The translations under genes were made by a program, and so were the position numbers. Below, in pieces: positions 38,705 through 43,475 of a stretch of DNA of 64,000 nucleotides (its first letter is position 1; every line of letters starts with the position of its first letter). Location: NCBI RefSeq assembly GCF_024128855.1, contig NZ_JAMYDV010000013.1, positions 1 to 64,000 of the forward strand, read 5' to 3'. Origin of the DNA: Rhodovulum tesquicola (lineage in GTDB: Bacteria > Pseudomonadota > Alphaproteobacteria > Rhodobacterales > Rhodobacteraceae). Below the pieces are notes generated by a model. It worked only from the letters and a program-made list of their open reading frames with translations. It ran no database searches and was not told the DNA's origin.

Positions 38705-39796
38705 ATGGTCACGTTCAACGCCATAGACAATGAATTCGCTGCCGCGACTGGCAGCAATGTCGACAGCAATGCCGGCGGCCCGGGCACGTCGACCTTCGAC
38801 TACCCGCCCAATGCGACCAAGGACCTTGTCATCACCTCCAAGCCGGACGACCCGGATCCCTACAGATTCCAGGTCGACGATGTCTACGAACTCAGCTTTG
38901 GCGGCATGGGCGGCAATACCACCATCGCGGACGCCAGGGTCATCCGCTCCGACGAGATTTCGTTCGCCTCGGGCCATGCTGTCGTCTTCGAAGGCACCGA
39001 CCAGAAAGGCGATCTCGTCCAGGTCGTCTGGTCGCCGGGATTCGACCTGGAGCAATGGTATTGGGATCATTTCGAGGGTGGGCAGAGTCCGGGATTCTAC
39101 GTCTATGATCTCGATCCGGGTACGGAATTCTCCGCGCCGGTAATGTGTTTCGAGGCCGAGACGCTGATCGCCACCCCGCGCGGCCCGGTTCGCGCGGCCA
39201 GCCTCGCGCCTGGAATGATGGTTGAAACGGTGGATCACGGGCCGCAGATGTTGCTCTGGGTCGGGCAAAGCGTGACACGGGGCACCGGGGTGATGGCACC
39301 GGTGGTGTTTCCGCCCGGGGCGCTTGGCAACGACCGGCCTCTGGTGCTGTCGCAGCAGCATCGCGTGATGCATGGCTCGGCGATGGCGGCGCTTCTGTTC
39401 GCCACCCCCGAAGTGCTCATCCCGGCGCGCGCCTTTGCCATCGCCGGGATCGGTGGCGCCGCCATCGCCGAGCGGCCCGTGGTGCGCTATGTCCATCTGC
39501 TGTTCGAACGGCACGAACTGGTGCAGGCCGAGGGAGTGGTCTGCGAGAGTCTCTATCTGGGCGATGTCGCCCGCCGCGCCCTAGATGCCGAGGCGCGCGA
39601 CGAGATCGCCACCCATTTTCCCGAACTCGATTTCACCCTCGGTGACGACGAACCGTTCGAGGCCGCCCGGCCGATCCTGCGCGCCTATGAGGCACGCGCC
39701 CTTTTCGGTGCCGGGTCCGCGGCTGGCGGTCAGGGCGCATGTCGTGAGACGGCCGAGTCGGACGCCCGCCCCAGACGGCTGGCAGCCTCCTGCTAG
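38705..39796 (+). CDS. Hint (hedgehog/intein) domain protein
   Basis: A 363-residue protein. The first 145 residues are acidic and glycine/asparagine-rich (NAGGPGTSTFDYPPN and similar), of unknown fold. The Hint_2 domain starts at MCFEAETLIATPRGPVRAASLAPG, whose Cys is the self-splicing or cleavage nucleophile of the superfamily. LVLSQQHRVMH holds the block-B-like His, and RYVHLLFERHELVQAEGV is typical of the rhodobacterial Hint_2 group. No signal peptide is visible. Such proteins are numerous in Rhodobacteraceae and usually uncharacterised; some are linked to secreted adhesins. Confidence 0.85.
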   Translation: MVTFNAIDNEFAAATGSNVDSNAGGPGTSTFDYPPNATKDLVITSKPDDPDPYRFQVDDVYELSFGGMGGNTTIADARVIRSDEISFASGHAVVFEGTDQKGDLVQVVWSPGFDLEQWYWDHFEGGQSPGFYVYDLDPGTEFSAPVMCFEAETLIATPRGPVRAASLAPGMMVETVDHGPQMLLWVGQSVTRGTGVMAPVVFPPGALGNDRPLVLSQQHRVMHGSAMAALLFATPEVLIPARAFAIAGIGGAAIAERPVVRYVHLLFERHELVQAEGVVCESLYLGDVARRALDAEARDEIATHFPELDFTLGDDEPFEAARPILRAYEARALFGAGSAAGGQGACRETAESDARPRRLAASC

Positions 39797-39837: not shown

Positions 39838-39876
39838 AAAAAAACGGCGACGCCAGGGAGGAGAGGCGTCGCCGTT
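39838..39876 (-). terminator. Terminator of the sRNA array (fourth hairpin plus T-run)
   Basis: On the minus strand AACGGCGACGCC (39876-39865), loop TCTCCTCCCT and GGCGTCGCCGTT (39854-39843) form a perfect 12-bp stem followed by seven Ts in a row (39844-39838, partly shared with the stem end). It is a canonical Rho-independent terminator, and its loop carries the CTCCTCCC motif of the array. Confidence 0.9.
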
Positions 39877-40018
39877 CTTGTCGGCGGCGGTGTCAGGGAG
39901 GAGGAGACCACCCGCCGCATAGATTGGGACCCGAAAGCCCCGAAAGGGTGCGGCGGCACCAGGGAGGAGGAGGGTGCCGCCGCGAGACAAGGAAACCCAG
40001 GGAGGAGGAGGGGCTTCC
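39843..40018 (-). ncRNA. Four tandem CcsR/cuckoo-like small RNAs with anti-Shine-Dalgarno loops
   Basis: Four hairpins on the minus strand each present TCCTCCTCCCT or a close form in the loop: 40018-39991 (weakest stem, GGAAgCCCC/GGAAaCCC), 39983-39950 (11-bp perfect stem GCGGCGGCACC), 39918-39884 (long stem with two bulged bases) and 39876-39843 (12-bp perfect stem, terminator). The CCUCCUCCC loop is complementary to Shine-Dalgarno sequences. This is the signature of the CcsR1-4 sRNAs of Rhodobacter sphaeroides and of the wider cuckoo RNA family. In R. sphaeroides they follow a DUF1127 gene; no DUF1127 gene is seen upstream here. Confidence 0.8.
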
Positions 40019-40088
40019 AAGTCGTGTTCGGCATGCCGGGCGTCTTGGTCTGCCCGACCGCGACTTTCGCCGCGCGCCGTTGAGATCA

Positions 40089-40116
40089 AAGATACGGCAA
40101 TGCTGCGCATGCACAA
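40089..40116 (-). promoter_or_regulatory. Possible promoter of the sRNA array
   Basis: On the minus strand TTGTGC (40116-40111) and TATCTT (40094-40089) are 16 bases apart, about 65 bases before the first hairpin, within a locally A/T-richer stretch. In R. sphaeroides the homologous array depends on RpoH-type sigma factors; I cannot tell the sigma class from this match. Confidence 0.35.
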
Positions 40117-40297
40117 TAGTTTCCGGGTGAAATGCCGCCATGCAGAAAATGCATGAGTCTTGCTGACGTAATTTCGAGCATCGTGCGCGCCGTTGCAAAC
40201 GAAACGGGCATGCCGAAAATGACCTTGCCCTCCGGGCGCGTCCGGACAAGTTAAGGGGTGGGGCCGCGGCCCCCGAATGCCCGAAAGGAAGACAGCC

Positions 40298-41371
40298 ATG
40301 CCCGTCACGCGCGATGCCGTCCTCGAATCCCTGTCCCGAGTCGCGCTGCCCGATGGCGGCGATCTGGTCTCGCGCGACATGGTGCGCGCGCTGTCGATCG
40401 AGGACGACACCGTGCGCTTCGTGATCGAGGCGCCCGATCCCGACCGGGCCGCGGAACTGGAGCCGGTGCGCGCCGCCGCCCAGGCCGCCGTCGAGGCGCT
40501 GGCGGGGGTGACGCGCGCCTCGGTTGTGCTGACCGCCCATGGCCCCGCCCCCAAGGCCCCGCCCGGCGAGGCGCTGAAGATCGGCCGCCATCCCACGCCC
40601 AAGGCCGGCCCCGAAAACCCCGCGGGCATCGACCGCATCCTCGCCGTCGCCTCGGGCAAGGGCGGAGTCGGCAAGTCCACCGTGGCCAGCAACCTTGCCG
40701 TTGCGCTGGCCCGGCAGGGCCGCCGTGTGGGCCTGCTCGATGCCGACATCTACGGCCCCTCGCAGCCCCGTATGATGGGCGTGACCCGCCGCGCCGCCTC
40801 GCCGGATGGCAAGACCATCGAGCCGATCGTGGCCCACGGCGTTACCATGATGTCGATCGGCCTGATGATGGAGGAGGGCCAAGCGGTGGTCTGGCGCGGG
40901 CCGATGCTGATGGGGGCGCTGCAACAGCTGTTGACCCAGGTGAACTGGGGGCCGCTTGACGTGCTGGTGGTCGATCTGCCGCCCGGCACCGGCGACATCC
41001 AGCTGACGCTTTGCCAGCGCACCAAGCTGAACGGCGCGATTGTCGTCTCGACGCCGCAGGATGTGGCGCTGATCGACGCACGCAAGGCCATCGACATGTT
41101 CGGCAAGCTCGGCACCCCCGTCCTTGGCCTGATCGAGAACATGTCCGCCTATGTCTGCCCGAATTGCGGACATGAGGCACATATCTTCGGCCATGGCGGC
41201 GTCGCGGCCGAAGCCGAGAAACTGGGCGTGCCGCTTCTGGGGGCGCTGCCGCTGGCGCTGGACATGCGCTTGGCGGGCGACGCTGGCCGCCCGGTGGCGC
41301 TGGGCGAGGGGCCGCTGGCCGACGCCTATGCCCATATCGCCGCCCGCCTGATCGGTGGCGGGATGGCCTGA
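40298..41371 (+). CDS. mrp: Mrp/ApbC family iron-sulfur cluster carrier ATPase
   Basis: A 357-residue protein. An N-terminal MIP18/DUF59 domain (about 1-85) is followed by an NBP35-type P-loop ATPase. The deviant Walker A is GKGGVGKSTVASNLA, with LLDADIYGPSQPRM and VDLPPGTGDIQLTL. The cluster-binding CxxC is CPNCGHE. It transfers 4Fe-4S clusters to apoproteins. The ATG at 40298 has GAAAGGAAG upstream; an ATG seven codons earlier is less likely. It is transcribed divergently from the sRNA array. Confidence 0.94.
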   Translation: MPVTRDAVLESLSRVALPDGGDLVSRDMVRALSIEDDTVRFVIEAPDPDRAAELEPVRAAAQAAVEALAGVTRASVVLTAHGPAPKAPPGEALKIGRHPTPKAGPENPAGIDRILAVASGKGGVGKSTVASNLAVALARQGRRVGLLDADIYGPSQPRMMGVTRRAASPDGKTIEPIVAHGVTMMSIGLMMEEGQAVVWRGPMLMGALQQLLTQVNWGPLDVLVVDLPPGTGDIQLTLCQRTKLNGAIVVSTPQDVALIDARKAIDMFGKLGTPVLGLIENMSAYVCPNCGHEAHIFGHGGVAAEAEKLGVPLLGALPLALDMRLAGDAGRPVALGEGPLADAYAHIAARLIGGGMA

Positions 41372-41724: not shown

Positions 41725-41969
41725 TGGTCATCGGATGACGGCGGACGTTTTCAGGGGCACCAAGACCCCACAGGCAAACGGGTTTCATACAGGCAGCCCG
41801 CCGTCATCGAAGAACAGAGATCCGGCGCGCGGGCGAGCAGAACATCCCCCCAGGTGGCGCGCGCAGCCGGACATCCCGAAGCGGGACGAGGGCGGCGGAT
41901 CGGGCAGTGGCAGCAGCTCGGTCCGCCGTTTCCGTTCCTGGCCGGAGAGCGAGAAGGAGCGGACGTCCG

Positions 41970-42473
41970 GTGGCGCGCAGGTTCAGAGGTTCGAGCCGCC
42001 ACAAGGTGGATGCCAAGGGCAGGGTGTCTATTCCGGCCCAGTTCCGGCGCGTCCTCGAGTCCTGCGATCCCGAATGGACTGACGGGTTGCGTCCGCAACT
42101 GGTGATCGTCTACGGCGATCACCGTCGCAAGTTCCTGGAATGCTATTCGATAAAGGCGATCGACGAGGTTGACGAGAAGATCGAGGCGCTGCCCCGCGGC
42201 TCGGTCGCGCGGCGCAGGCTGGAACACCTGTTCAATGGCCAGTCGTTGCCCACCGAGGTCGATCCCGACGGGCGGCTCGTGCTGCCGCAGAAGTTGCGCG
42301 AGAAGATCGGCCTGGGCGAGGAGGCGTTCTTCATCGGCTCGGGCGACACGTTCAAGATCTGGAATCCCGACATCTATGAGGCCGAGGAACTGGCCGATAC
42401 CGAAGCCTGGCTCGAGGACAAGCCGGACGATTTCGACCTGCTGTCGCTTCTCGACAATCCCGAGGCGGTCTGA
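41970..42473 (+). CDS. mraZ: MraZ, transcriptional regulator of the dcw cluster
   Basis: A 167-residue protein with two SpoVT/AbrB-like DNA-binding repeats: KVDAKGRVSIPAQFRRVL (about 12-29) and VDPDGRLVLPQKLREKIGL (about 97-115). It starts at GTG 41970, giving MARRFRGSSRHK, with GAAGGAG upstream; the frame is open further upstream but without similarity. MraZ represses or tunes its own cluster by binding repeats upstream. It is 3 bases from rsmH. Confidence 0.94.
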   Translation: MARRFRGSSRHKVDAKGRVSIPAQFRRVLESCDPEWTDGLRPQLVIVYGDHRRKFLECYSIKAIDEVDEKIEALPRGSVARRRLEHLFNGQSLPTEVDPDGRLVLPQKLREKIGLGEEAFFIGSGDTFKIWNPDIYEAEELADTEAWLEDKPDDFDLLSLLDNPEAV

Positions 42474-42476
42474 ACG

Positions 42477-43475
42477 ATGGCCGCCGCGGAACGCCCCGCC
42501 CCCTCAGAGCCGCCTCATATCCCCGTCCTTCTGCGGCCCCTGCTCGAGGCCGTCGCGCCGGTCTGCGGCGTCTGGCTTGACGGGACCTTCGGGGCAGGAG
42601 GCTATGCCCGCGGCCTGCTGGATGCCGGGGCGGATCGCGTGATCGGTGTGGACCGCGACCCCAGCGTGTTCGAGATGGCGCAGGGATGGGCGGCCGAGTA
42701 TGGCGAGAGGCTGCGGCTGGTGCAGGGCACGTTCTCGCGGCTCGATGAACATGCGGGGGAACCGCTTGACGGCGTGGTGCTGGATCTCGGCGTGTCCTCG
42801 ATGCAGATTGACCGGGCAGAGCGGGGCTTTTCCTTCCAGAAGGACGGCCCGCTGGACATGCGGATGGGCGATAGCGGGCCTTCGGCGGCAGATCTGGTGA
42901 ATTCCGCGCCCGAGGCGACGCTGGCCGACATCCTGTTTCATTACGGCGAGGAACGCGCTGCCCGCCGGATCGCGCGGGCCATCGTCGCGGCCCGCGCCAT
43001 CGCGCCTCTTGTCACCACCGCGCAACTGGCCGAGGTGATCGCCCGCTGCCTGCCACGACCGCAGCCGGGCCAGATCCACCCCGCGACGCGCAGTTTTCAG
43101 GCGATTCGCATCGCGGTGAACGACGAGTTGGGCGAACTGGTGGCCGGGCTAGAGGCGGCCGAACGCGCGCTGAAACCCGGCGGCAGGCTGGCGGTCGTGA
43201 CCTTCCATTCGCTCGAGGATCGGATCGTCAAACGTTTCCTGCAATTGCGTGCGGGTCAGACGGGCGGGGGCAGCCGTCACGCGCCCGAGATCCCGATCGA
43301 AGCGCCGCGGTTTCATATCCTGACCCGCAAGGCCGTCGGACCCGATGATGCGGAACTTGCCGCCAACCCGCGCGCGCGTTCGGCAAAGCTGCGCGTTGCC
43401 GAGCGCACCGACGCGCCTGCGGGGCCTGTGGATCGCGCCCAACTGGGTTTGCCGGCGATCATGGAGGGGGCATAG
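42477..43475 (+). CDS. rsmH: RsmH (MraW), 16S rRNA C1402 N4-methyltransferase
   Basis: A 332-residue SAM methyltransferase. Motif I is [17 protein letters not shown]; further blocks are [40 protein letters not shown] and the C-terminal [14 protein letters not shown]. It methylates C1402 in the ribosomal P site. It directly precedes ftsL, with no intergenic base. The mraZ-rsmH-ftsL order is universal. Confidence 0.97.

Follow-up and report, generated by a model that had tools for sequence, protein, structure and literature searches.

A CcsR/cuckoo-type anti-Shine-Dalgarno RNA array beside mrp in Rhodovulum, apparently orphaned from its DUF1127 partner and preceded by a predicted VtlR/LsrB-type operator

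The window analysed here, i.e. a whole stretch of 64,000 nt of Rhodovulum tesquicola DNA, contains on its minus strand, between a gene for a Hint-domain protein and mrp, four consecutive hairpins with anti-Shine-Dalgarno (aSD) sequences in their loops. We consider them, with a probability of roughly 70%, to be a redox- or stress-induced array of small RNAs (sRNAs) of the CcsR/cuckoo kind, which has a VtlR/LsrB-type promoter and has been orphaned from its DUF1127 partner. The array itself is of a known kind. As far as searches of the open-access full text go, two aspects appear to be new: the DUF1127-less state of the ancestral locus across the genus, which the cuckoo, CcaF1 and CcsR papers may already note, and the predicted operator of the VtlR/LsrB type in CIN1 promoters.

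Structure and conservation of the hairpin array

The studied interval (39838..40116) ends at the promoter block, and the four hairpins occupy its minus strand from 39838 to 40023, all of them with CTCCTCCC in the loop and the last one leading into seven T. Hairpin 1 has a core stem of 8 bp (39991..40018, with an outer stem extending to 39986-40023) and CCTCCTCCTCCC in its loop, and hairpin 2 (39950..39983) comprises a perfect 11-bp stem and a CTCCTCCTCCCT loop; both were found by the stem scan, by folding and in the alignment. The remaining two are based on the fold and the alignment: hairpin 3 (39884..39918) has an interrupted stem that looks weak when considered alone in the window, but possesses the best covariation support, and hairpin 4 together with its T tract (39838..39879) forms a probable intrinsic terminator. 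The first-pass annotation described these four consecutive hairpins as sharing one loop type and ending in a perfect 12-bp terminator. The hairpins are present, and the fold of the whole 301-nt minus strand has a z-score of -4.3, not equalled by any of 100 shuffles. The common loop type holds exactly for three loops (CCTCCTCCC), while the fourth retains only CTCCTCCC preceded by a T, and the terminator is retained as probable, but with 15 predicted pairs instead of 12 and with five of the seven T's paired in the fold.

Folded alone, hairpins 1, 2 and 4 reach -15.7, -24.8 and -26.8 kcal/mol (z -3.4, -6.6 and -6.1, respectively), and hairpin 3 reaches -16.8 kcal/mol with a z of only -1.6, equally good folds being obtained in 8 of 200 shuffles. 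A scan of the 64 kb for stems enclosing CTCCTCC returned the four array stems within 190 nt and three others scattered elsewhere. Since one of the latter, at 40854-40885, has a score a little better than that of hairpin 3, hairpin 3 is unremarkable on its own. There are nine copies of CTCCTCCCTG in the genome, four of them in the array; none of the other five belongs to an array, and two of these lie in a short stem (L155, L157).

Covariation of the stems among relatives, on which the first-pass annotation had staked its reading beforehand, is evident in an alignment of the arrays of 16 Rhodovulum genomes, the window included. The four-helix structure pairs 96.9% of the cells, 15 of the 43 pairs show changes on both sides, and for any one of five measures none of 500 shuffles scored as high. 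When the partners were slid by one to three columns the pairing fell to 34-62%; this control is biased towards the structure, which was drawn from two of the aligned sequences, and more weight falls on the compensatory changes. They occur in three of the four helices, with loops nearly identical across the genus, and are most telling for hairpin 3, where 9 of 11 pairs have changed on both sides somewhere and 87.8% of the cells are paired. No pair of helix 1 has changed on both sides, hence this helix provides evidence neither for nor against. A separate consensus fold recovered the four stems, the third incompletely.

Two matches to the CcsR1 family (RF02791) lie in tandem on the minus strand, at 39945..40025 (46.3 bits, E 5e-10) and 39839..39922 (44.4 bits, E 2e-9), each covering the full length of the model (positions 1-83). 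Because each match spans two hairpins, the array consists of two CcsR-like units, which agrees with the CcsR/cuckoo type proposed for it earlier, but not with the suggested one-for-one correspondence of the four hairpins to CcsR1-4. Both units miss the curated gathering cut-off of 65.3 bits, which is reached in only 3 of 101 relatives, and the window matches to ar14 (RF02344; 42.5 and 36.8 bits) also fall below its cut-off of 58.8; nonetheless, the CcsR1 and ar14 matches are far above chance. At its curated thresholds Rfam reports nothing at the array, its sole matches in the window being two tRNAs at other places. At an E-value of 0.001, RF02791 has matches in all 16 Rhodovulum genomes (including that of the window) and in 54 of the 101 genomes searched. 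One gene-less Rhodovulum has a second CcsR1-like locus with two hairpins (L105, G013:C1:2302300-2314300), which is devoid of mrp, the promoter block or a DUF1127 match.

The conserved landmark of the locus is the divergent neighbour mrp (40298..41371, plus strand), which encodes an ApbC/NUBPL-type protein whose closest named relatives are those of Rhodovulum steppense (93%), R. strictum (89%) and R. euryhalinum (88%), which places the window in Rhodovulum. It is followed by mraZ and rsmH (41907-43475, plus strand), with which the division and cell wall cluster begins; in R. sphaeroides, the sRNA UpsM is reported to derive from its 5' UTR. We collected 123 mrp-linked loci, of which 110 remained after removal of 11 duplicates and two loci at contig ends (L018, L048). 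An array, taken as two or more aSD hairpins running divergently from mrp, is present in 107 of the 110; the other three are L085, with DUF1127 and one hairpin, L019, which has the promoter block and one detected hairpin but no DUF1127, and L045, with neither array, DUF1127 nor block beside mrp. As this is the usual arrangement of the family, the array, which had been regarded as either orthologous or independently placed, occupies the orthologous CIN1 locus. Its linkage to mrp is conserved; the Hint-domain gene on the other side (38705..39796, plus strand), also mentioned in defining its place, is an incidental convergent neighbour, and of the 16 Rhodovulum loci examined 8 gave no match to it. 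A typical mrp-array-DUF1127 locus of Rhodobacteraceae is found in CP059262.1 (L030), titled Exiguobacterium profundum, a Bacillota name; its Mrp is 73% identical and groups with G049 in a tree (calculated without rows L020, L051, L110 and L115, dropped for in-frame stops, L001 and L002 being copies of the window locus), and the organism label is probably wrong.

The Hint-domain gene bears on the most sceptical reading of the hairpins, namely that there is no sRNA gene and that they are untranscribed remnants or terminators of this convergent gene. Its end lies 43 nt from hairpin 4, no transcript of the array is known, and generic scans reported neither a sigma-70-type promoter nor a terminator here, the terminator scan admitting only loops of 3-8. 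Such remnants or terminators would hardly account for the compensatory changes in three helices, the nearly invariant loops, a T tract on the strand of the array, the absence of the Hint gene beside half of the genus arrays and the retention of the promoter block after the loss of DUF1127 (see below), and we regard this reading as highly improbable.

The missing DUF1127 gene

The absence of a DUF1127 frame between the promoter and the array, stated at the outset, is confirmed: with a profile built from 86 of the mrp-linked DUF1127 proteins nothing in the window, and hence nothing between the array and mrp, reaches an E-value of 1, and the Pfam DUF1127 model finds no gene on the contig. A DUF1127 gene is located between mrp and the first hairpin in 89 of the 107 array loci, while the other 18 have none within 1.7 kb. 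Fourteen of these 18 are from Rhodovulum (the window, L010, L011, L012, L014, L017, L021, L090, L092, L099 and L101-L104), the others being L062, L109, L124 and L138. Since the profile had been made from mrp-linked proteins, the absences in the 16 genus genomes were cross-checked with Pfam, which found an mrp-linked DUF1127 gene in G002 and G009 only. Because the gene is usual between promoter and array and two Rhodovulum relatives keep it, it has most likely been lost from the ancestral mrp-linked locus, as judged from sequence comparison. The leaders of 19 loci without the gene were searched for what might be left of it, with nothing convincing (best E 0.17).

To place the loss, three proteins from 32 chosen rows were used for a tree (UvrD is missing in 4 rows), in which the genus forms one clade (100/98). 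The gene-less G010 is sister to the gene-bearing G009 (96/90), and G002, which has the gene, groups with the remaining 13 gene-less members in a branching order that the tree leaves unresolved. The AU test, applied to groups picked after the first tree had been seen, rejected the grouping of all 14 gene-less members (p 0.032) but did not reject that of the 13 (p 0.42), which suggests at least two losses within the genus, unless the gene was regained. Gene-less arrays have a median of 4 hairpins against 6 in those with the gene, yet the gene-bearing G002 and G009 also have 4. At one further locus (L114, G022:C6:15500-28500) four frames match the mrp-linked DUF1127 profile beside two clusters of hairpins, indicating a local expansion of the DUF1127-array unit.

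The array may have lost the gene without losing its dependence on the protein, which would then be supplied in trans by another DUF1127 gene of the genome. DUF1127 genes at other places, scoring above the Pfam cut-off, are retained in each of the 16 Rhodovulum genomes, those at C2:89568-89675 and C10:132081-132152 (47.8 and 30 bits with Pfam) being the candidates in the window's own genome, and CcaF1 is reported to affect the levels of CcsR in trans. The better of these two copies is not of the mrp-linked type, as it scores 34 bits compared to about 60-100 for the mrp-linked matches listed, and G002 and G009 have such other copies in addition to the mrp-linked one, which leaves supply in trans a possible but doubtful explanation. 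The same scores led us to reject the C2 copy as a relocated mrp-linked gene.

The promoter block and its candidate regulator

The first-pass annotation credited the array with a possible promoter of its own, and a conserved block is indeed found between mrp and the array. Read along the minus strand, it comprises a TGCA-N6-GCAT element (40140..40153), similar to the LsrB site of the NfeR1 promoter, which overlaps a predicted VtlR/LsrB-type box, TGCATGGCGGCATTT (40130..40144), identical in 13 of 15 positions to the published motif when the latter is reverse-complemented. They are followed by TTGTGCA-N3-GCAGCA (40101..40116), of which TTGTGC (40116-40111) is the likely -35 element, and, 16 nt after the latter, by the likely -10 element TATCTT (40089..40094), which corresponds to TATNT or CCATNT in many relatives. 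Transcription would start near a conserved CAAC (40082-40079), and the putative start and leader (40024..40088) occupy the place of the relatives' DUF1127 gene.

Both elements recur throughout the family. TGC[A/G]-N6-GCAT was found in 108 of the 110 loci (0.9% in base-shuffled sequences) and TGC-N3-5-GCAGCA in 105 (0.7%), and the two together with TTG[T/C]GC at a fixed spacing of 22-23 nt in 99, compared to 0% in shuffled sequences. Among 15 fetched stretches that contain an array or a weak match and in which mrp was not found (it may lie beyond them), 8 have the block in front of the array or match; hence the block goes with the array, and mrp as its sole owner was rejected. The seven block-less stretches include weak RF02791 matches, which may not be arrays. 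L114, the sixteenth stretch checked, has mrp but no match to the block. The distance from the block varies with a standard deviation of 14.7 nt to the start of mrp and of 10.6 nt to that of DUF1127 (n=79), which decides little.

The Brucella VtlR motif, CAATGCAGCCATGCA, has been described upstream of three DUF1127 genes and of the sRNA AbcR2 (PMC12595884). Its reverse complement agrees with the family consensus TGCATGGCAGCATTG in 14 of 15 positions, and at least 13 of 15 bases match in 79 of the 110 loci; 200 shuffled motifs gave 0.015 loci on average and never more than 1, and the level was reached in 0 of 550 shuffled sequences. In seven other fetched stretches, which total about 55 kb, two further sites match at 13/15 as well, so the case is built on conservation across the family and not on the site in the window; exact matches to the box GCATRGCRGCAWT number three in the genome. 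With the predicted start near 40082 the two promoter elements would span about -71 to -48 and cover the positions published for the LsrB sites of NfeR1 (TGCA-N6-GCAT at -72 to -57; PMC10746234) and AbcR1 (-61 to -49). Thus, by its sequence, the promoter looks like one with a LysR operator of the VtlR/LsrB type. PhaR, NtrC and RegA/PrrA had been considered as candidate readers of the block and were set aside once the VtlR motif emerged. On the rhizobial side, the class-wide ar14 search had matches in 2 of 190 genomes, which therefore gave no promoters for comparison, and SmelA075, a relative on pSymA of S. meliloti, has three aSD hairpins with no clear box upstream.

The block of an orphaned array might also be read by another LysR protein, or by an RpoH-type sigma factor together with some other factor, if its likeness to the VtlR motif were that of TGCA-rich LysR sites in general. 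In favour of this, 102 of the 108 loci counted have A or G at position 9, where the published box has T; TTGTGCA-N3-GCAGCA equals the VtlR-like box in conservation and is not explained by VtlR; and the R. sphaeroides CcsR operon is described as driven by RpoHI/RpoHII (PMC10253847). The 14/15 agreement of the consensus, its specificity with respect to shuffled motifs, the agreement of its predicted position with published LsrB sites and the nearly unchanged DNA-binding part of the candidate regulator described below argue against another reader, which we hold to be rather unlikely. The element TTGTGCA-N3-GCAGCA overlaps the -35 region, and its second exact match in the genome lies inside a gene (L150).

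If VtlR/LsrB is the reader, an ortholog should be encoded in these genomes. A LysR gene adjoins trxB in 13 of 31 trxB stretches, and for one of the encoded LysR proteins the best solved match is 9hh1 (331 bits, the next being 126), deposited with a study of A. tumefaciens LsrB (PMC11975290); NCBIfam assigns no specific name to these trxB-linked proteins. A profile built from 12 of the 13 detected one clear VtlR/LsrB ortholog in each of 37 Rhodobacteraceae genomes (37/37, among 61 genomes searched), at 356-388 bits and with the next LysR protein at about 180 bits at most. The ortholog in the window's genome (G000:C5:79911-80786) scores 368.7 bits with the profile (next LysR, 174.4) and 239.5 bits with 9hh1 (next solved match, 102.1). 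Its identity to the trxB-linked members is 46-52% overall, and the start of the DNA-binding domain is preserved almost letter for letter. It is not located beside trxB, whose neighbour in this genome looks, by eye, like an AsnC/Lrp-type gene. A VtlR-type box of 13/15 begins 28 nt before its likely start codon (L225:2884-2898, on C5), which would suit self-regulation; translation from an earlier ATG would place the box within the frame.

These orthologs, identified by sequence, contradict the statement in PMC11975290 that LsrB is unique to Rhizobiales and agree with PMC7486931, according to which it is conserved in Alphaproteobacteria. Published accounts of its targets differ as well: for S. 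meliloti, PMC7486931 states that the AbcR RNAs are not under LsrB control and PMC8844928 that AbcR1 is, so the circuit as reported either varies or is disputed, and VtlR targets are said to vary from species to species.

Proposed mechanism and implications

Judging from the anatomy of the locus and from its relatives, the ancestral locus, divergent from mrp, would have produced a single transcript comprising the promoter-proximal gene for a CcaF1-like DUF1127 protein, the CCUCCUCCC hairpins and the terminator. In Rhodovulum the gene would have gone and the promoter and array stayed, so that the promoter would now drive the array after a leader of ~60 nt. In redox stress the array would be activated by the VtlR/LsrB ortholog, whose gene lies at another place in the genome, through binding to the putative operator about 50-70 nt upstream of the predicted start, as for LsrB activation of NfeR1 and AbcR1 in S. 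meliloti, perhaps joined at the core promoter by an RpoH-type stress sigma factor as in R. sphaeroides. CcsR of the latter is reported to be cut by RNase E and CcaF1 (PMC8625941); here processing would yield two units of two hairpins each, with no CcaF1 encoded in cis, and the exposed loops would reduce the translation of many mRNAs by pairing with their Shine-Dalgarno regions. The loops might instead chiefly titrate an RNA-binding protein, a second RNA or free parts of ribosomes, like a sponge. This could be suggested by the many identical loops that the family carries per transcript (arrays with DUF1127 have 2-15 hairpins) and by a reported interaction of CcsR with Hfq. For the related NfeR1, however, silencing of target mRNAs by its three aSD motifs has been reported with genetic proof (PMC7143759), and we find a sponge acting in place of defined silencing quite unlikely.

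The locus combines features of several known systems. With CcsR1-4 of the R. sphaeroides ccaF1-CcsR operon (RF02791) it shares tandem two-hairpin units, CCUCCUCCC loops and a 3' terminator, but it has two units instead of four, scores below the cut-off and lacks the DUF1127 (ccaF1) gene, and its promoter is read from sequence as VtlR/LsrB-controlled, unlike the RpoHI/RpoHII-dependent promoter of the published description. Cuckoo RNA/CIN1 loci have the same constant aSD loops, variable stems and orthologous place beside mrp in Rhodobacteraceae, but the association of DUF1127 with sRNA, which as described gives CIN1 its name, is absent here. Sinorhizobium ar14/NfeR1 (RF02344) is reported with identical CCUCCUCCC loops and a TGCA-N6-GCAT LsrB site in its promoter, and like the window array it has no DUF1127 partner in its published description; it differs in having three hairpins and a sigma-70 promoter, and the window match to it is below the cut-off, as noted above. 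Finally, the Rhizobiales VtlR/LsrB circuit, described as comprising AbcR1/2, VrsA and three DUF1127 genes, shares the sequence type of the operator, its distance as judged from the predicted start, and the classes of targets, i.e. aSD sRNAs and DUF1127 genes, but belongs to another order; the window box is a predicted one, with A or G where the published motif has T, and the regulator gene of the window's genome is not beside trxB.

We found no link in the open-access full text between CcsR/CcaF1 of Rhodobacter and the rhizobial VtlR/LsrB control of AbcR, NfeR1 and DUF1127. The promoter finding would join the two, the latter being known from rhizobia and their kin, and with the VtlR/LsrB ortholog a named candidate for the control of CcsR-type RNAs is added to the RpoH sigma factors. 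We are somewhat inclined to think that VtlR/LsrB is an ancient, order-spanning switch for aSD sRNAs and DUF1127, whose operator is hard-wired in the CcsR/CIN1 promoters across Rhodobacteraceae, and that in Rhodovulum the circuit operates on the RNA array alone. If this is true, the function of the array would be separable from CcaF1. In this genus a well-studied operon occurs naturally without DUF1127, next to the gene-keeping relatives G002 and G009, and evolution has thereby set up a test of whether CcsR requires CcaF1 for its function.
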